NCBI GenBank assembly: GCA_028716485.1
Contig: JAQUPS010000008.1
Location: 1 to 58,402 of the forward strand
DNA length: 58,402 nucleotides
DNA from: Patescibacteria group bacterium
GTDB lineage: Bacteria; Patescibacteriota; Patescibacteriia; Patescibacteriales; WJLG01
Direction: 5' to 3'
Position 1 is the first letter of the stretch. Each line of letters opens with the position of its first letter. Below the pieces are notes generated by a model. That model saw only the letters and a program-made list of their open reading frames with translations, did no database searches and was not told where the DNA came from. Position numbers and translations under genes: made by a program. Below are positions 4,536 to 38,171 of the stretch, piece by piece.

Positions 4536-6065
4536 TCAAGCGGATTTTTCCCGATATTGCAGAGCTTCGGCCAGATGGGCGGTGGAAATCGATGGTTCAT
4601 TATCCAGGTCAGCGATAGTGCGAGCTAATTTTAAGAGGCGAAAATAGGAGCGAGCGGAAAGATTGAGTGTGTCGATGGCGCTGCTGATCAGTTTTTTGGC
4701 TTCATCATCAAGCGCGCAGCATCGCCGGGTTTTTTCCGAGCTCATTTCCGCGTTGGTGAAGATTTTTTCGTTCTTGAATCTTTCCGCCTGGATTTCCCGC
4801 GCCGCGGTGACGCGTTTTTTCATGGTTGAAGAATTCTCGCCGGGGAGATTTTCGTCCAATTTTTTGAATTCCATCCGCGGCACTTCCAGTTGCATGTCGA
4901 TGCGGTCCAAAATCGGGCCGGAAATTTTTTTGCGGTAATTCTGGATCTGCATCGCCGAACAGGAACAGGCGCGGGCGCGGTCGCCGAAAAATCCGCAAGG
5001 GCAGGGGTTCATCGAAGCGATTAAAATGAATTTGGCCGGAAAATCCAGATGTCCGGCGGCGCGGCTCACGGTAATGACGCCGTCTTCGAGCGGCTGGCGC
5101 AAAGCTTCCAGAACCGGACGGGGAAATTCGGCGAATTCGTCCAAAAACAAGACGCCGCGATGGGCAAGCGATATCTCTCCCGGGCCGGGCTGGATGCCGC
5201 CGCCGACCAAAGCCACGCCGGAAGCGGTGTGATGCGGGGCGCGGAACGGCCGGGACTTTATCAAACCGCTTTTTTCTTTCAGTTTGCCGGCGACGCTGTA
5301 AATTTTGGTGACCTCTAAGGCTTCGGCAAAAGCCAGATCCGGTAAAATGGAAGGAAAAGTTTTAGCCAGCATTGTTTTACCCGAACCTGGCGGGCCGAAC
5401 ATCAGCAAATTATGTCCGCCGGCCGCGGCTATCTCCATCGCCCGTTTTACCTGCTCCTGGCCTTTCACGTGCGCCATGTCATATTCGATTGGCACATTAA
5501 AAAGTTCCGGATCGCGGTAGGGAAATTCGGGAATGGCGACTTTGCCGCGCAAATGAAAGACCAGCTGCATTAAATTTTTAACTGGAATTACCCTGATTTC
5601 TTTGGCTAATTTGGCTTCGGCCGCGTTGGCTTCCGGCAAAAAGACCGTTGTCTTGCCGGCGCGTCTGGCGCAAAGCGCAACCGGCAGGGCGCCGGTAATC
5701 GGGCGCAGATCGCCGTTCAAAGATAGCTCGCCGGTAAAAATAAAATCGTCCAGATTGATTTTTCCCGAAATGAATTCGCTTTTCTGCAAGATGCTGATGG
5801 CGATCGGCAGATCAAAAGACGGCCCGTGCTTGGGCAGATAGGCCGGCGCCAGATTAACGGTCACTGAAACGCGCGGAAATTCAAAATTGGAATTTTTAAT
5901 GGCGCTCCGCACCCTTTCCCGAGCTTCGGAAACTGCCTTATCCGGCAAGCCGACTAAAAAAATTTTTCCATACTCTCCCCCGCCGGTATCGGCCTCGACC
6001 TCGACCAATTCGGCGTCCAGCCCGACCACCGCGGCGGAAAAAACTTTACTCGACATGAATATCAA
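4536..6065 (-). CDS. comM: YifB/ComM family Mg-chelatase-like AAA+ ATPase
   Basis: GPPGSGKTMLAKTFPSILP, FRAPHHTAS, RGVLFLDEFAEF, MNPCPCGF. Confidence 0.95.
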   Translation of the reverse strand: MIFMSSKVFSAAVVGLDAELVEVEADTGGGEYGKIFLVGLPDKAVSEARERVRSAIKNSNFEFPRVSVTVNLAPAYLPKHGPSFDLPIAISILQKSEFISGKINLDDFIFTGELSLNGDLRPITGALPVALCARRAGKTTVFLPEANAAEAKLAKEIRVIPVKNLMQLVFHLRGKVAIPEFPYRDPELFNVPIEYDMAHVKGQEQVKRAMEIAAAGGHNLLMFGPPGSGKTMLAKTFPSILPDLAFAEALEVTKIYSVAGKLKEKSGLIKSRPFRAPHHTASGVALVGGGIQPGPGEISLAHRGVLFLDEFAEFPRPVLEALRQPLEDGVITVSRAAGHLDFPAKFILIASMNPCPCGFFGDRARACSCSAMQIQNYRKKISGPILDRIDMQLEVPRMEFKKLDENLPGENSSTMKKRVTAAREIQAERFKNEKIFTNAEMSSEKTRRCCALDDEAKKLISSAIDTLNLSARSYFRLLKLARTIADLDNEPSISTAHLAEALQYREKSA

Positions 6066-6116
6066 TTAAAAATTATGCCGACGTAAAGTCGGCATCCCGA
6101 GCTTGCCTCGGGAAAA
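6061..6116. repeat. dispersed two-hairpin repeat (family B, copy 1)
   Basis: ATCAATTAAAAATTATGCCGACGTAAAGTCGGCATCCCGAGCTTGCCTCGGGAAAA; one mismatch to 33333..33388. Confidence 0.85.
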
Positions 6117-6240
6117 ATGAAAAGTTAAAAATTATTTAAAGACGATAACTCTTTTATTATAACATAAAATAGATATTCGGTGATTTAGGTAAATGCGGTT
6201 GACAAAAAAGATTTTTACTGTTAAGTTTAAATTAATTTTT

Positions 6241-21251: not shown

Positions 21252-21480
21252 AGGGCATGTGCGTTCCTCCGCCGCCTGTGCCGCTCAAGGCATTGAAGAT
21301 AAAGTAGGTGATGGAGTAGGCGGCAATAATGATTGCCAGACCGATGATGGCGCGCGTTATGGTGGGTAGGGCATGTGCGTTCCTCCGCCGCCTGTGCCGC
21401 TCAAGGCATTGAAGATAAAGTAGGTGATGGAGTAGGCGGCAATAATGATTGCCAGACCGATGATGGCGCGCGTTATGGTG
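21252..21480. repeat. tandem direct repeat, 113 bp identical units with 116 bp period
   Basis: 21252..21364 repeated at 21368..21480, both AGGGCATGTGCGTTCC...GCGCGTTATGGTG. Confidence 0.9.
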
Positions 21481-21797
21481 TGTTTGGATTTTTCGATTTT
21501 TTCCTCATTGCCTTCGGCGGTCATCCATTGGAATCCGGCATAGATAAGCAGTACGACAAAAATTATACCAAGAAGACTTAAGGCCGCAGTAATTATCGTG
21601 CCGACAATTCCGGCCACGTTGGTGACCGACACTCCTGATGACAGCAAAAAAGCTTTTGTTTGCGGGTTGGAAACAGAAAGGGGATTGGGTGTTGCGGCGG
21701 CGGCCGGAGCTTCATCCGCGGCCAAAGCCGAAAAACCCGCCAACAAAAAACAAGTGAAAACGATTGATAAGAAAATAGTGGAAATTTTTTTAATCAT
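21357..21797 (-). CDS. T4SS-pilin-like protein
   Basis: YAGFQWMTAEGNEEKIEKSKHTITRAIIGLAIIIAAYSITYF. Confidence 0.8.
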   Translation of the reverse strand: MIKKISTIFLSIVFTCFLLAGFSALAADEAPAAAATPNPLSVSNPQTKAFLLSSGVSVTNVAGIVGTIITAALSLLGIIFVVLLIYAGFQWMTAEGNEEKIEKSKHTITRAIIGLAIIIAAYSITYFIFNALSGTGGGGTHMPYPP

Positions 21798-26507: not shown

Positions 26508-26575
26508 GCAAATAAAAAATAAAAATTAAAAAAGAAAAAATTTTAAATCGAAAATCGCAAATCGAAATTCGATAA

Positions 26576-26659: not shown

Positions 26660-26735
26660 GGGCCCGTAGTTCACTTGGTAGAACGCCTGCTTTGCAAGCA
26701 GGAGGTAAGCGGTTCGAATCCGCTCGGGTCCACCA
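26660..26735 (+). tRNA. tRNA-Ala(UGC), CCA encoded
   Basis: GGGCCCG...CGGGTCC ACCA, loop TTTGCAA. Confidence 0.95.
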
Positions 26736-26783
26736 TCTCAATTTTCGAATTTCGATTTGCGATTTTCGAATTATTTTTTTCAT

Positions 26784-27701: not shown

Positions 27702-30539
27702 ATGAGTAAAACCAAGAAAAAATTGATAATTATCGACGGCAACGCCTTGATTCACCGCAGTTTTCACGCTCTGCCGCCGACTTTGCGCACCAAAGACGGC
27801 GAGCTGGTCAATGCGGTTTACGGCTTTTCCGCGGTCTTGCTGAAAGCCTGGCGCGAACTGAAACCGGATTATATCGCCCTGACTTTGGATATGAAAGGGC
27901 CGACTTTCCGGCACAAGAAATATAAAGAATACAAAGCCACGCGCGTCAAAGCGCCGCAAGATTTATATGACCAGATTCCACGCGTCAAGGAAGTGGCAAC
28001 CGCTTTTAATATTCCGATTTTTGAATTGTCCGGTTTTGAAGCCGATGACTTGATCGGGACGATCGATAAAAAAGTCGATGGCGGAGTGGAAAAAATAATC
28101 GTCACCGGCGATATGGATACTTTGCAATTGGTCGATGAAGACACCAAAGTTTTTACCATGGGTCACGGTTTGAGCGAGAGCGTGATTTACGACGAAGCAA
28201 GAGTTAAAGATAGATACGGGCTTGATCCCGACCAGATGATTGATTATAAATCTTTGCGCGGCGATCCGTCTGATAATATTCCCGGCGTGAAAGGCATTGG
28301 TGAGAAAACCGCCACCGAATTGCTGCAAAATTTTAAAACTTTGGAAGGCGTTTATGATCAATTAAAAATTAAAAATGAAAAATTAAAAATTAAGCCGCGA
28401 ATAATTGAATTACTAAAAGAGCACGAGAAAGAAGCATATTTGTCTCGCGAATTAGCAACAATCAAAACTGATGTGCCGCTTGATTTTGATTTGGAAAAAT
28501 GCCGCGCTTACGATTTTGACCGCGAAAAAGTCGCCGGAGTTTTCAGCGAATTGGGCTTTAAATCGCTTTTGCCGCGGGTGCAGGATTTGGTTTCGGCGCA
28601 TTTCAAGGTTTCGGATAAATCCGCCTATGCCAAGGCTACGGCGGACAGGTTCGAGCGCGACCGGACGGAATTCAAATATATTTTAGTCGATGATGATAAA
28701 AAGTTCGCGAAATTTTTAGTCGAGCTGAAAAGACAGAAACAATTCACCATTGATACGGAAACTACCGGCTTTGACCCGCTTTTGGAAGAATTGCTCGGCA
28801 TCAGTTTTTCCTGGCGGGAAGGGGAAGCGCACTTTGTTTCAATTAAGAATGAAGAATTAAGAATGAAGAATAGCAAAGCAAGCCTATTTGATTATCAGAA
28901 AAAAGAAAGCGAGAAAAAAAACGATAATCCGCGGCTGGCGGAATTAAAATTGATTTTGGAGGATGAGAAAATAAAAAAATTCGGGCACAATATCAAGTTT
29001 GATTTGCGGGTGCTGCGGCACAACGGGATAAAGATGCGCGGATTGGATTTTGACACGATGATCGCTTCGTATCTGCTTAATCCCGGCACCAGAGCGCATA
29101 ATTTGGACGCCGTTACTTTTGCCGAATTGGGTTTTGAAAAAATCAGCACGGAAGATCTGCTCGGCGCCGGTAAAGATAAAAAGATTTTCGCGAACGTGGA
29201 AACGGAAAAGCTGGCCGTCTATTCCTGCGAGGACGCGGATTTTACCAATCGGTTGGTGGCAAAATTATCCAAACACCTGAAAGAAAAAGAATTGGCCGAA
29301 CTTTTTGAGGAGATTGAAATGCCGCTGGTGCCGGTTTTGGCGACCATCGAAGACAATGGCGTAATCATCGATAAAGATTTTCTCGCGGTAATGGATAAAA
29401 AAGTCGGCAAGAAAATCAGCGGATTGGAAAAAAAGATTTGGGCGCTTGCCGGCGGCGAATTCAATATCAATTCTACCCAGCAGCTCAAAGAGGTTTTGTT
29501 TGAAAAATTAAATATTTCCACGGCCATGGTCGGCCGGACTAAAACCGGTTATTCCACGGCTGCCGACGAGCTGGAAAAATTGAAGCACGAGCATGAAATA
29601 ATTCCGCTGATTCAGGAATACCGCGAGCTGGCCAAATTGCAATCAACTTATATCCAGGCTTTGCCGGCTTTGATAAATCCGCAGACTGGCCGGGTGCACG
29701 CCAGTTTCAATCAAACCGTCACCGCCACCGGCCGGCTTTCTTCCTCTGACCCGAATTTGCAGAATATTCCCATCCGCACCGAATTGGGCCAGGAAATCCG
29801 CCATGCTTTTATCGCGCAAACAGGCTGGAAAATAGTTTCGCTGGATTATTCGCAGATTGAATTGCGCTTGGCCGCTCATTTATCCGGCGACGAACGGATG
29901 ATCGATACTTTCGCCCGAGGCTTGGACATCCACACTTCCACGGCCGCGGCGATTAATAATGTAAAGATCGAAGACGTTACCAAAAAAATGCGTCAGGAAG
30001 CCAAAGCGATCAATTTTGGAATTTTATATGGCCAGGGTCCGTACGGGTTGGCGCAGAATGCCGATATGCCATTGAACCGCGCCAAAGAATTCATCGAACA
30101 TTATTTTGATTTATATCCGAAGATCAAGAAATATTCGGAAGCGATGATGGATTTCGCCCGGAAAAACGGCTACGTGGAAACTTTGTTCGGCCGGCGCCGT
30201 TATCTGCCGGAAATAACTTCGCAGGTCGCGCCGGTGCGCGCCTCGGCCGAGCGGATGGCCGTCAACACGCCGCTGCAAGGCACGAACGCCGATATGATCA
30301 AAAAGGCGATGATTCTGGCGCAAAATTTAATTGATGAAAAATATTCTGACAGCGTGAAGATGATAATTCAAGTGCACGACGAATTGGTTTTTGAAATGCG
30401 CGAAGACAAGATGAAAGAAGCGGCCGGCCGGATTCAGGATATTATGCGCAATATATTGAAACTAAAAGTCCCGGTGGTCGTTGATATAGAGATCGGGGAG
30501 AATTGGGGAGAGCTCGTGAAGCTGGAAAATAAAAAGTAA
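27702..30539 (+). CDS. polA: DNA polymerase I with 5'-3' exo, 3'-5' exo and polymerase domains
   Basis: LIIIDGNALIHRSFHALPP; FTIDTETTGFDP; DYSQIELRLAAHLSGD; QVHDELVFE. Confidence 0.97.
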   Translation: MSKTKKKLIIIDGNALIHRSFHALPPTLRTKDGELVNAVYGFSAVLLKAWRELKPDYIALTLDMKGPTFRHKKYKEYKATRVKAPQDLYDQIPRVKEVATAFNIPIFELSGFEADDLIGTIDKKVDGGVEKIIVTGDMDTLQLVDEDTKVFTMGHGLSESVIYDEARVKDRYGLDPDQMIDYKSLRGDPSDNIPGVKGIGEKTATELLQNFKTLEGVYDQLKIKNEKLKIKPRIIELLKEHEKEAYLSRELATIKTDVPLDFDLEKCRAYDFDREKVAGVFSELGFKSLLPRVQDLVSAHFKVSDKSAYAKATADRFERDRTEFKYILVDDDKKFAKFLVELKRQKQFTIDTETTGFDPLLEELLGISFSWREGEAHFVSIKNEELRMKNSKASLFDYQKKESEKKNDNPRLAELKLILEDEKIKKFGHNIKFDLRVLRHNGIKMRGLDFDTMIASYLLNPGTRAHNLDAVTFAELGFEKISTEDLLGAGKDKKIFANVETEKLAVYSCEDADFTNRLVAKLSKHLKEKELAELFEEIEMPLVPVLATIEDNGVIIDKDFLAVMDKKVGKKISGLEKKIWALAGGEFNINSTQQLKEVLFEKLNISTAMVGRTKTGYSTAADELEKLKHEHEIIPLIQEYRELAKLQSTYIQALPALINPQTGRVHASFNQTVTATGRLSSSDPNLQNIPIRTELGQEIRHAFIAQTGWKIVSLDYSQIELRLAAHLSGDERMIDTFARGLDIHTSTAAAINNVKIEDVTKKMRQEAKAINFGILYGQGPYGLAQNADMPLNRAKEFIEHYFDLYPKIKKYSEAMMDFARKNGYVETLFGRRRYLPEITSQVAPVRASAERMAVNTPLQGTNADMIKKAMILAQNLIDEKYSDSVKMIIQVHDELVFEMREDKMKEAAGRIQDIMRNILKLKVPVVVDIEIGENWGELVKLENKK

Positions 30540-30548
30540 AAAACTTTA

Positions 30549-32021
30549 ATGATGAAAGATAAAATAAAATTTTTACAGAACAAAAAAATTGCCATGCTTG
30601 GGCTGGGGGTGGAGAATTTGGCGTTGGTGAAATTTTTGTTGAAAAATAAGATTGATTGCCATATTTCGATCTGCGATCCGAAGCCGGCGGCGGAATTGGG
30701 CGACAGGTTTTTGGAAATCAAGGAATTGGCGCGTAAAAATAAAATGCCGGAAATAAATCTGATGGCTGGAAAAAATTACGACGCGCATCTGGCGGATTTC
30801 GATATTGTTTTCCGCTCGCCCGGTTATCCGCTGTTCAATCCCAATTTGGTGAAGGCGACCAAGGCGGGTGTGCAAATTTCCAGCCCGATGAGATTGTTTT
30901 TTGTATTGTGCCCGACGAAGAATATCATCGGTGTGACCGGCTCGAAGGGGAAAGGCACGACCTCGTCGTTGATTTTTGAAATCATCAAGAAATCCGGCAA
31001 AAAATCATGGTTGGGCGGGAATATCGGCACAGCGCCGTTTGATTTTATCGAAAAAATAAAACCGAAGGACTTCGTAGTTTTGGAATTATCCAGTTTTCAA
31101 CTGGAAGATTTGGATATTAGTCCGCGTATCGCCGTAGTTACTAATTTATTTAAGGAACACTTGGCTCCGGCCGATCCGAATAATCCGAATTATCATCGAT
31201 CAATGAAGGCGTATTCGGCGGCTAAGGCGAATATTTTTTGTCATCAGAAAAAAGATGATTGGGTTGTCGCCAACGAAAGTTTGAAAAGCAGAATCCCTCT
31301 GTTTTGTCATTCCGAGCCCCGGGCGAGGAATCTGTTTCAATCCAAGAACATAAATAGATCCCTCGCTAATGCTCGGGATGATAAAAAAAGAGTGGTTTTT
31401 TACGGAAAATCGGAATTGGCGAGCAATTTAACCGGCGAGCATAATAAGGAGAATGTTGCCGCAGCCGAATCAGTGGCCAAGATTTTGCATATCAAGCCGG
31501 CGATAGTCGCGTCAGCGGTGAAAAAATTCCAGGGTTTGCCGCATCGTTTGGAATTTGTCGCCGAAATCAACGGCGTTAAATATTTTGACGATAGTTTTGC
31601 CACCGTGCCGGACGTCAGCGTCATCGCTTTAAAATCTTTTGCTGGCGGGGAAAACCCACCCCGTCGTGCCGAGGCGGCACGCCACCCCTCCCGAGAGGGG
31701 AATATAATTTTATTGGCCGGCGGCGCCGATAAGGGCTCGGATTTTAAAAATTTCGCCAAAGAAATCAAAAAACGCGTAAAATATTTAATCCTGTTTAAAG
31801 GTAAAGGCACGGAAAGAATAAAATACGAAATACGAAATACGAAATACGAAATACGAGTCAGCGAAGTTGATAATATGAAAGATGCTGTTTTATTGGCGAA
31901 AAAAAATTCCAAGTCGGGCGATATCGTCCTGCTTTCCACCGGCTGCGCCAGCTTCGGGTGTTTTAAAAATTACAAAGAACGCGGCGATCAATTTAAGACG
32001 GAAGTAATAAATAAGAAATAA
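30549..32021 (+). CDS. murD: UDP-N-acetylmuramoylalanine--D-glutamate ligase
   Basis: NIIGVTGSKGKGTTSSLIFEIIK; VLELSSFQLEDL; FQGLPHRLEFVAEINGVKYFDDSFAT. Confidence 0.93.
   Translation: MMKDKIKFLQNKKIAMLGLGVENLALVKFLLKNKIDCHISICDPKPAAELGDRFLEIKELARKNKMPEINLMAGKNYDAHLADFDIVFRSPGYPLFNPNLVKATKAGVQISSPMRLFFVLCPTKNIIGVTGSKGKGTTSSLIFEIIKKSGKKSWLGGNIGTAPFDFIEKIKPKDFVVLELSSFQLEDLDISPRIAVVTNLFKEHLAPADPNNPNYHRSMKAYSAAKANIFCHQKKDDWVVANESLKSRIPLFCHSEPRARNLFQSKNINRSLANARDDKKRVVFYGKSELASNLTGEHNKENVAAAESVAKILHIKPAIVASAVKKFQGLPHRLEFVAEINGVKYFDDSFATVPDVSVIALKSFAGGENPPRRAEAARHPSREGNIILLAGGADKGSDFKNFAKEIKKRVKYLILFKGKGTERIKYEIRNTKYEIRVSEVDNMKDAVLLAKKNSKSGDIVLLSTGCASFGCFKNYKERGDQFKTEVINKK
31306..31385. repeat. 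inverted-repeat element in frame inside murD (family G)
   Basis: TCATTCCGAGC...GAGGAATCT...AGATCCCTCGC...GCTCGGGATGA encodes CHSEPRARNLFQSKNINRSLANARDDKK. Confidence 0.75.
31655..31702. repeat. family A repeat in frame inside murD (copy 4)
   Basis: CCCACCCCGTCGTGCCGAGGCGGCACGCCACCCCTCCCGAGAGGGGAA encodes NPPRRAEAARHPSREGN. Confidence 0.85.
31819..31856. repeat. short tandem repeat (AAATACG) in frame inside murD
   Basis: AAAATACGAAATACGAAATACGAAATACGAAATACG encodes IKYEIRNTKYEIR. Confidence 0.85.
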
Positions 32022-32122: not shown

Positions 32123-33358
32123 ATGCTTGAAGAACAAAAAGTTTTAAAATTTCCCGATGGTTTTCTCTGGGGCGTTTCCACCTCGTCTTACCAGATTGAA
32201 GGCGGGATTACCAATGATTGGAGCCAGTGGGAAATGTCGGAAAAACGGCTGAAGGAATTGCGCGATAAGAAATTGAATTACCGTGATTTTGTCGCGGGTC
32301 GGGCTTGTGATTCGTATAATAAATATAAAGAGGACGCGGAAATGGTCAAGGCTCTAAATTGCGGCGGCTATCGTTTGGGTTTGGAGTGGGCGAGAATTGA
32401 ACCTAAGGAAGGAGAATTTAATTACGAGGAAATTGAACATTATCGCCGGGTGCTGGAAAATCTGCGCGAGAAGAATATCAAAGTCGTCCTGACGCTCTGG
32501 CATTGGACCAATCCGCTCTGGCTGGTCAATGAAGGCGGCTGGGCCAATAAAAAAGTCGTCGATTATTTTTCCCGTTATGTGGAATTCGTGGTGACGCAAT
32601 TGGGAGATTTGGTGGATTTTTGGGTGACCATCAACGAACCGACCGTTCATGTCTTCAACGGATATTTCCGGGGAACTTTTCCGCCGAATAAAAAAAATAT
32701 TTTCTTGGGCGCCAAAGCTTTTCTGAATCTGCTGGCCGCTCATAAAAAAGCTTATGATATCATCCATCGCTATAATCTGCGCGCCAATGTCGGTTTTACT
32801 CACTTAGGAGATAATTTTCAGCCGGCGCGGCCCTGGTTTTTACCGGAAATAATGCTGGCCTGGTTTTTCAATTTTTTCTGCAATAATTTGTTTCTGCGCT
32901 TGGTTCACGGCCATACTGATTATATCGGCCTTGATTATTATTTTCATAATCGCGTGGTTTGGCATCCGCCGTTTTTGAAAAACCTTAACAAAGACGTGAC
33001 GGATTTCGGCTGGGAAATTTATCCGGAAGGAATCTATAATATTTTGAAAGACTTGCGCCGTTTTAAGAAACCCATTTATATTATGGAGAACGGCATCGCT
33101 GACGCGGCTGACGCCAAGCGGGGGAAATTCATCATCGACCATTTGCGCTACGTTCACGAAGCTATCGAAGAAGGCGAGGATATCCGCGGTTATTTTCATT
33201 GGTCGCTGCTGGATAATTTCGAATGGGCCGCCGGCTGGACGATGAAATTCGGGCTGTATTCGCTTAACCGCGAAACTTGCGAGCGGAAAGCCCGCCCCAG
33301 CGCGGCGGTTTACGCCGAGATTTGCCAAACAAATCAATTAAAAATTATGCCGACGTAA
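32123..33358 (+). CDS. glycoside hydrolase family 1 (beta-glucosidase-like)
   Basis: FPDGFLWGVSTSSYQIEGG; WVTINEPTVHVFNGY; PIYIMENGIAD; GYFHWSLLDNFEWAAGW. Confidence 0.95.
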   Translation: MLEEQKVLKFPDGFLWGVSTSSYQIEGGITNDWSQWEMSEKRLKELRDKKLNYRDFVAGRACDSYNKYKEDAEMVKALNCGGYRLGLEWARIEPKEGEFNYEEIEHYRRVLENLREKNIKVVLTLWHWTNPLWLVNEGGWANKKVVDYFSRYVEFVVTQLGDLVDFWVTINEPTVHVFNGYFRGTFPPNKKNIFLGAKAFLNLLAAHKKAYDIIHRYNLRANVGFTHLGDNFQPARPWFLPEIMLAWFFNFFCNNLFLRLVHGHTDYIGLDYYFHNRVVWHPPFLKNLNKDVTDFGWEIYPEGIYNILKDLRRFKKPIYIMENGIADAADAKRGKFIIDHLRYVHEAIEEGEDIRGYFHWSLLDNFEWAAGWTMKFGLYSLNRETCERKARPSAAVYAEICQTNQLKIMPT

Positions 33359-33388
33359 AGTCGGCATCCCGAGCTGGCCTCGGGAAAA
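33333..33388. repeat. family B repeat (copy 2), supplying the GH1 C-terminus and stop
   Basis: ATCAATTAAAAATTATGCCGACGTAAAGTCGGCATCCCGAGCTGGCCTCGGGAAAA. Confidence 0.85.
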
Positions 33389-33489
33389 GTTAAAAATGAA
33401 AAATCATAAGTTCAGCCTCGAATCAATTTGAAGATAAAAATAAGAAATTAAATTTTTAATTTTTAATTTTTAACTTTTAATTGATTCGC

Positions 33490-37025: not shown

Positions 37026-37096
37026 CGGGTTGTAGTATAATGGTAGTACGCGTGCATGGGGTGCATGTAGCCGCGGTTCGATTCCGCGCAGCCCGA
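37026..37096 (+). tRNA. tRNA-Pro(GGG)
   Basis: CGGGTTG...CAGCCCG, loop ATGGGGT. Confidence 0.9.
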
Positions 37097-37282
37097 CAGA
37101 ACGCATACCAGGTTCCCACCCATAAGGTGGTCCGCCTTTGGCGGAAATTCCCAGTACCCCGACGATTCGGATTTCAGAAGTCGGAATTCGGATTTCGGAT
37201 AAAGATCTAAAATATTTTGTCCAAACAAAATTACTTAAGCGATTTATCCGAAATCCGATGTCCGAAATCCGATTTTTGATAC

Positions 37283-37356
37283 GGGTAATTAGCTCAGTTG
37301 GTTAGAGCGCTGCATTCACATTGCAGAGGTCATAGGTTCGAGTCCTATATTACCCA
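37283..37356 (+). tRNA. tRNA-Val(CAC)
   Basis: GGGTAAT...ATTACCC, loop TTCACAT. Confidence 0.95.
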
Positions 37357-37360
37357 CATT

Positions 37361-37431
37361 GGGCCTATAGTCTAGCGGTACGACGCTACATTCGCATTGT
37401 AGAGGCGGCGGTTCGACTCCGCCTAGGTCCA
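37361..37431 (+). tRNA. tRNA-Ala(CGC)
   Basis: GGGCCTA...TAGGTCC, loop TTCGCAT. Confidence 0.9.
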
Positions 37432-37544
37432 CAGATCGGATTTCAGAAGTCGGAATTAGGATTAAACGATAAAAATATTTTTATTGAGATGAAATTGTTT
37501 ATCGGATATCCGATTTCTGATTTCCGAAATCCGATATCCGATAG

Positions 37545-37616
37545 GCGGGAGTAATTCAACGGTAGAATGTTTGCTTCCCAAGCAAAATGTTGCGGGTTCG
37601 ATTCCCGTCTCCCGCT
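37545..37616 (+). tRNA. tRNA-Gly(CCC)
   Basis: GCGGGAG...CTCCCGC, loop TTCCCAA. Confidence 0.95.
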
Positions 37617-37735
37617 CATCGGATTTCGGATGTCAGATATTGGATGTCGGATTTAGCGTTTAAAAAGTTTTATTCAAATAAAACAGTTTTAGCGATTTAT
37701 CCGAATTCCGAAATCAGAAATCCGATATCGGAAAC

Positions 37736-37817
37736 GGGCGCGTGGCGAAATTGGCAGACGCATACGCTTCAGGTGCGTACGAAGCAATTCATGTGGGTTC
37801 AAGTCCCACCGCGCCCA
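37736..37817 (+). tRNA. tRNA-Leu(CAG)
   Basis: GGGCGCG...CGCGCCC, loop TTCAGGT, long variable arm. Confidence 0.95.
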
Positions 37818-37875
37818 CCTTCGTCCGCCGAAGCGGACTACGGCGGGCAAAGCCCACCGTTTCCGCGAAGGCGGA
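37818..37875. repeat. family C palindromic repeat abutting tRNA-Leu(CAG)
   Basis: CCTTCGTCCGCCGAAGCGGACTACGGCGGGCAAAGCCCACC... Confidence 0.8.
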
Positions 37876-37980
37876 ACATCGATTTGCGATTTCAGATTTT
37901 TGATTGACGATTTGTTTTTTATAGTTTATGGTATCTATAAAGATAAATCGAAAATCGTAAATCTGAAATCGTAAATCGTT

Positions 37981-38017
37981 TCGGGGTATGGCCTAATTGG
38001 CTATGGCGCACGCTTCG
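37981..38017 (+). pseudogene. 5' half of tRNA-Pro, exact 37-bp duplicate of 38084..38120
   Basis: TCGGGGTATGGCCTAATTGGCTATGGCGCACGCTTCG then a family C palindrome. Confidence 0.85.
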
Positions 38018-38084
38018 CCCGCCTTCGCTAAGGCTTCGGCGGATAAAGGTGCTTGAAGTGATTTTTAAAGTTCGCGAAAATGGT

Positions 38085-38158
38085 CGGGGTATGGCCTAAT
38101 TGGCTATGGCGCACGCTTCGGGTGCGTGAGGTTCTGGGTTCGAGTCCCAGTACCCCGA
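38085..38158 (+). tRNA. tRNA-Pro(CGG)
   Basis: CGGGGTA...TACCCCG, loop TTCGGGT. Confidence 0.95.
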
Positions 38159-38171
38159 CCATTTTCACGAG

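Follow-up and report, generated by a model that had tools for sequence, protein, structure and literature searches.

The murD gene of this small, uncultured Patescibacteria bacterium reads, within a single open frame, through repeats of three multi-copy families. Two of these, the palindromic families A and G, are true insertions by comparison with orthologs, while the third, a tract of AAATACG, is an in-frame repeat of a separate class, the 7-nt tandem arrays, situated in a helix of normal length. That CHSEPRARNLFQSKNINRSLANARDDKK, NPPRRAEAARHPSREGN and IKYEIRNTKYEIR, as members of three repeat families, share one open frame of the murD ORF was proposed in a first-pass annotation and is confirmed by the ORF; that all three families are multi-copy is shown by the genome counts given below. 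The most probable explanation is that palindromes resembling REPs and Rickettsia palindromic elements (RPEs) spread in the genus and that copies inside genes persist only when they are in frame and lie in a tolerant loop. The features in murD are as follows, numbered along the window, that is the whole stretch of 58,402 nucleotides that was analysed.

30549..32021, + strand: murD ORF, 490 aa, intact, sole murD of the genome
31302..31388, + strand: family G insert at site 1, MurD residues ~252-280, a head-to-head pair of TGTC-type REP-like hairpins separated by a 21-nt spacer
31305..31334, + strand: family G left unit, tagged TGTC, stem ATTCC-GA-GCC (tandem G.A mismatch), loop and CTG tail
31356..31383, - strand: family G right unit, inverted, TGTC tag decayed to TATC
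31651..31703, + strand: family A two-hairpin element, MurD residues ~367-385 (site 2), net +18 aa
31665..31681, + strand: family A hairpin 1, CGTGCCG-AGG-CGGCACG, stem variable among copies, AGG/CGG triloop mostly retained
31685..31700, + strand: family A hairpin 2, CCCCTC-CCGA-GAGGGG, stem conserved
31821..31856, + strand: heptad tract AAATACG x5.1, perfect (site 3), within predicted helix 419-430, length unchanged

Is the gene that carries these repeats still a gene? The 490-aa ORF is identified as MurD by TIGR01087 (319.6 bits, cut-off 211.95), and no second murD above this cut-off was found in the genome, a draft of 1.15 Mb in 28 contigs that is 99% complete; among named organisms, Falkowbacteria and further Patescibacteria are nearest to it. 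Comparison with the same-genus ortholog, in which synonymous sites are close to saturation, gives a dN/dS of ~0.15 by NG86 and 0.18 by YN00, and murD is under purifying selection. The AlphaFold model, based on 50 sequences, has a mean pLDDT of 89.9 and falls below 50 only at residues 257-278, within the family G insert, and 369-371, inside family A; its top Foldseek matches are all solved structures of MurD, and the MurD motif columns are retained in the alignment with relatives. The predicted fold is intact, with both inserts as its only disordered segments. It could be imagined that murD is a decaying pseudogene or that the repeats are assembly artefacts, as draft assemblies, of which this one in 28 contigs is an example, are prone to error at repeats. 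This is hardly credible given the open full-length frame, the low dN/dS of a sole murD, the retained motif columns, the confidently predicted fold and the same kind of inserts in an independent genome of the genus, and the pseudogene or second-copy reading was dropped on the grounds of the sole copy and its dN/dS. Residues 348-352 (31590-31605) read DSFAT here and in almost every aligned relative. In E. coli MurD this motif is DSKAT, with Lys319, so the lysine is replaced by phenylalanine across the lineage.

At site 2, 101 other non-redundant orthologs have a loop with a median length of 4 residues, as compared to 22 residues here, a net gain of 54 nt or about one family A element. A presence/absence comparison, suggested with the original claim, revealed no insert at this site in 99 of the 101 other orthologs; one of the two with a clear insert belongs to the sole other genome of the genus. 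The loop measures 62 residues in the same-genus MurD and 16 in that of GW2011_GWC2_42_12. Site 1 is a length-variable loop (ortholog median 19) that is longest in the MurD described here, with 42 residues. Site 3 measures 18 residues where the orthologs have a median of 19, and this normal length and the confident predicted helix rule out the heptad tract as an insertion. Of the three insertions originally envisaged, those of families A and G are thus borne out by extra length relative to orthologs and that of the heptads is not.

In the same-genus MurD, site 1 is occupied by family A in reverse orientation and site 2 by a composite of other palindromes, and two further inserts are present. 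MurDs of other relatives contain different palindromes or heptads in the loops at residues 33-39 and 148-155 and at site 1, and unique perfect palindromes are found in MurD loops of three distant relatives, with a 15-bp stem in one (L064) and 10-bp stems in two (L169, L176). Stems of at least 7 bp occur in 9 of 28 MurD loop inserts as compared to 12% of control windows, a modest enrichment that carries no weight. The surface-type positions of these loops and the persistence of the inserts in a gene under purifying selection would also be expected if the inserts were ancestral or functional MurD loops, serving for example in regulation or partner binding. Such a role is very improbable, however, since nearly all other orthologs lack the site-2 insert, since the inserts that the same-genus species has at these sites differ in sequence, length and orientation, and since the same repeats are mostly intergenic and are also found in proteins unrelated to MurD.

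Family A has the layout AACCCACCCCGTC - hairpin 1 - (G/T)CCACCCCTC - loop - GAGGGGAAT and was detected at 44 places in the genome (E<=1). The statistics that follow were drawn from stretches that cover 39% of this genome (~448 kb) and 396 kb of the sister genome, these two being the only genomes that represent the genus. Thirty copies were found in the 448 kb, 23 of them intergenic and seven intragenic; counting in-frame copies had been put forward as a check, and all seven intragenic copies are in frame. They reside in MurD, LepA, Dus (two copies), TsaD, ComEC and methylpurine-DNA glycosylase, and in these six host genes domain matches run through the insert or flank it on both sides. With a coding share of ~77%, as estimated by a simple codon-score gene caller, the genic deficit of family A is pronounced (binomial P ~1e-9). 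Copies are ~48-54 nt long and are read in varied frames and from either strand, and no single peptide is conserved. Hairpin 1 is diverse, with 35 distinct best stems over 75 copies from both species; a stem of at least 5 bp is formed by 64% of copies as compared to 11% when shuffled, and the triloop is AGG or CGG in 47 of the 75. Both genomes of the genus are rich in family A, the sister genome more so, whereas only five of 58 other order-level genomes searched gave a match at E<=0.001, a restricted spread that fits recent amplification.

Family G occurs at 23 places in the genome, and its strict TGTC pattern had no chance matches in Markov-generated sequence. Only one of 19 copies in the 448-kb sample is intragenic, the murD copy being the sole clear case. 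All 18 sampled units have the TGTC tag, which except for its first base was part of the search pattern. The stem begins A-T and consists of 5 bp, the tandem G.A mismatch and 2-3 bp, closed by a loop of ~3 nt, and the tails are CTA in eight, CCC in five and CTG in four of the 18 units. A head-to-head arrangement is seen in the murD copy and in two of five neighbouring pairs; three pairs lie in one tandem cluster. At L089, 1755-2138, four family G units form a tandem cluster with ~117-nt spacing.

Period-7 arrays number 135 in the 448 kb, with 43 distinct units, and in a Markov-generated control none was among the listed periods. Ten of 126 arrays are intragenic, as compared to a coding share of 77%. 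A link between palindromes and heptads was not found, as two of 49 palindromes lie near a heptad array against 17% of random intergenic points. Heptad arrays are often inverted partners of each other (25 of 41 neighbouring pairs less than 600 nt apart in the sample; three of 41 are direct). One inverted pair (26537-26575 and 26742-26780) encloses a tRNA-Ala gene (26660-26735), and the same pattern was noted at a tRNA cluster (37026-38161). In addition, a 75-nt repeat (6061-6135 and 33333-33407, 92% identical) consists of two hairpins edged by heptad-like AT-rich sequence.

Repeats in frame are also found in polA, which adjoins murD:

27702..30539, + strand: polA, with in-frame repeats
28360..28393, + strand: heptad array 1, reads QLKIKNEKLKIK
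28617..28649, + strand: palindrome TCCGCC-TATGCCAAGGCTAC-GGCGGA, reads SAYAKATADR, repeat family also in UvrD (L096)
28841..28871, + strand: heptad array 2, reads SIKNEELRMKNS

The six such features of polA and murD exceed the number expected from a uniform spread (Poisson P ~3e-7, uncorrected for the choice of place). In 93 within-genus ortholog pairs, 21 genes contain a total of 33 indels 8 aa or longer. Of these indels 22, in 16 genes, are multi-copy (matched with 32 bits or more by two or more further places), as compared to 61 of the 330 matched control segments (Fisher P ~2e-8). Judged from these alignments and from the repeats in polA, murD is not special, as roughly one in six of the genes that could be compared within the genus carries such an insert and so differs between the two species.

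How could palindromes come to lie in frame within core genes? In the reading that we consider likely, short non-coding hairpin-forming repeats of ~50-90 nt would multiply within the genus and colonise MurD among other places, inserting irrespective of orientation and reading frame, with most survivors being intergenic. Survival within a gene would require a net length divisible by three and a host frame free of stops, and the intragenic survivors would fall in loops able to bear a floppy extra peptide. The two species differ in the repeats that occupy both MurD sites, and this turnover and the depletion of the repeats from genes are consistent with such a course. The copies presumably arise by transposition, survival may reflect purifying selection alone, and the inserted peptide is probably tolerated rather than useful. 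Mobilisation of the RAYT/Y1 type was considered and is not supported, because the single Y1_Tnp gene of the genome is flanked by a hairpin different from family A and because no Y1 transposase was found in the same-genus genome, which is richer in family A. A classical MITE would be marked by terminal inverted repeats and a target-site duplication; filled/empty alignments, in which divergence blurs the edges, revealed no clear duplication of this kind and frequent local sequence replacement.

Speaking against a spread of the transposition type are the wholly different hairpin-1 stems, which simple master copying does not explain. Alternatively, palindromes might be formed, perfected and remodelled in place by hairpin-templated replication errors (snap-back, template switching), with unrelated perfect hairpins recurring in the same tolerant loops, instead of being transposed as defined families. 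The many perfect yet unrelated stems among family A copies, the unique perfect palindromes in MurD loops of the three distant relatives mentioned above, the lack of clear target-site duplications in the alignments and the failure to find a Y1 transposase in the sister species, which has the most family A, all favour this idea. On the other hand, the outer sequences AACCCACCCCGTC ... CCACCCCTC ... GAGGGGAAT are common to dozens of dispersed copies, which would need copying from a template, and two thirds of the within-genus inserts (22/33) are multi-copy. A purely local origin is therefore rather unlikely. If it were true, a continuing, family-independent source of palindromes acting in place, instead of ordinary mobile elements, would extend core enzymes.

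RPEs are short palindromic elements of several families, found between genes and also, with the frame kept, inside core genes that are unrelated to each other, with a unit of ~150 bp that codes for a conserved peptide (PMC10969869). Families A and G resemble them in being palindromic, multi-copy, in frame in unrelated genes and missing from nearly all orthologs. Family A differs from them in its length of ~50 nt, its two hairpins with a variable stem, the absence of a single peptide and its host, a member of the Patescibacteria. As an analogy, the parallel to RPEs drawn at first therefore holds for families A and G and fails for the heptads; the two families are set beside RPEs by description and are not called RPEs here. 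The accompanying remark that the sequences are different applies only in part, as family G is closest to the CGTC/TGTC REPs, among which RPE-4/6 are classed (PMC3733652).

CGTC REPs are composed of an unpaired CGTC tag (with TGTC and CCTC variants), an 8-9 bp stem beginning with A-T, a 4-5 nt loop and a tail that is mostly CCA, and head-to-head dimers predominate; intragenic dimers code for 20-30 aa, and intragenic GTAG/CGTC REPs are found in genes for DNA polymerase I, UvrD-type proteins and tRNA modification, among others (Di Nocera et al., 2013, PMC3733652). Family G shares with them the TGTC tag, the A-T stem start and, in murD, a head-to-head dimer coding for ~28 aa, and the DNA polymerase I and UvrD gene classes are struck in both systems. 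It differs by the tandem G.A mismatch in the stem, a triloop instead of 4-5 nt and the tail CTA/CTG/CCC instead of CCA, and Patescibacteria are absent from the phyla listed for CGTC REPs (PMC3733652). Family G is thus CGTC-like, and its tail and loop features place it outside the class. With the REPIN/RAYT system (PMC3116915, PMC2817692) the families share the nature of short hairpin repeats dispersed mainly between genes but not the REP-associated Y1 transposase, which was found neither alongside them here nor anywhere in the same-genus genome. Heptanucleotide tandem arrays with the unit TAACTGA are described in Beggiatoaceae (PMC4679880), and tandem repeats of constant size and variable sequence only for sizes of 20-21 and 52 nt (PMC8161180). 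The heptad arrays described here resemble these in a unit size fixed at 7 with varying sequence and in being mostly intergenic, and differ in the many units within one genome, the frequently inverted neighbours and the occasional in-frame location in genes. No published report of such repeats in Patescibacteria was found in a literature search that covered mainly open-access papers.

The principle that RPEs and intragenic REPs can be read as part of proteins is already known, whereas family A is new, having matched none of the families described in the literature compared. Core genes with palindromic repeats in frame are familiar chiefly from Rickettsia and from a small number of genomes rich in REPs. 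Their heavy load in a small-genome member of the Patescibacteria constitutes a second, independent natural experiment, and it opens questions on the insertion tolerance of proteins, on repeat movement without an obvious transposase and on new protein segments in reduced genomes. Moreover, motifs such as NPPRR..HPSREGN and AYAKATAD in proteins of this kind can be translated repeats instead of domains.

Two further duplications were observed in the window. A near-perfect 116-bp tandem duplication lies at 21252-21483, and the contig ends (2-127 and 58277-58402) form a perfect 126-nt inverted repeat that also starts another contig (L105) and resembles in translation the C-terminal part of an integrase-type transposase, so that the contig probably breaks at insertion-sequence copies.
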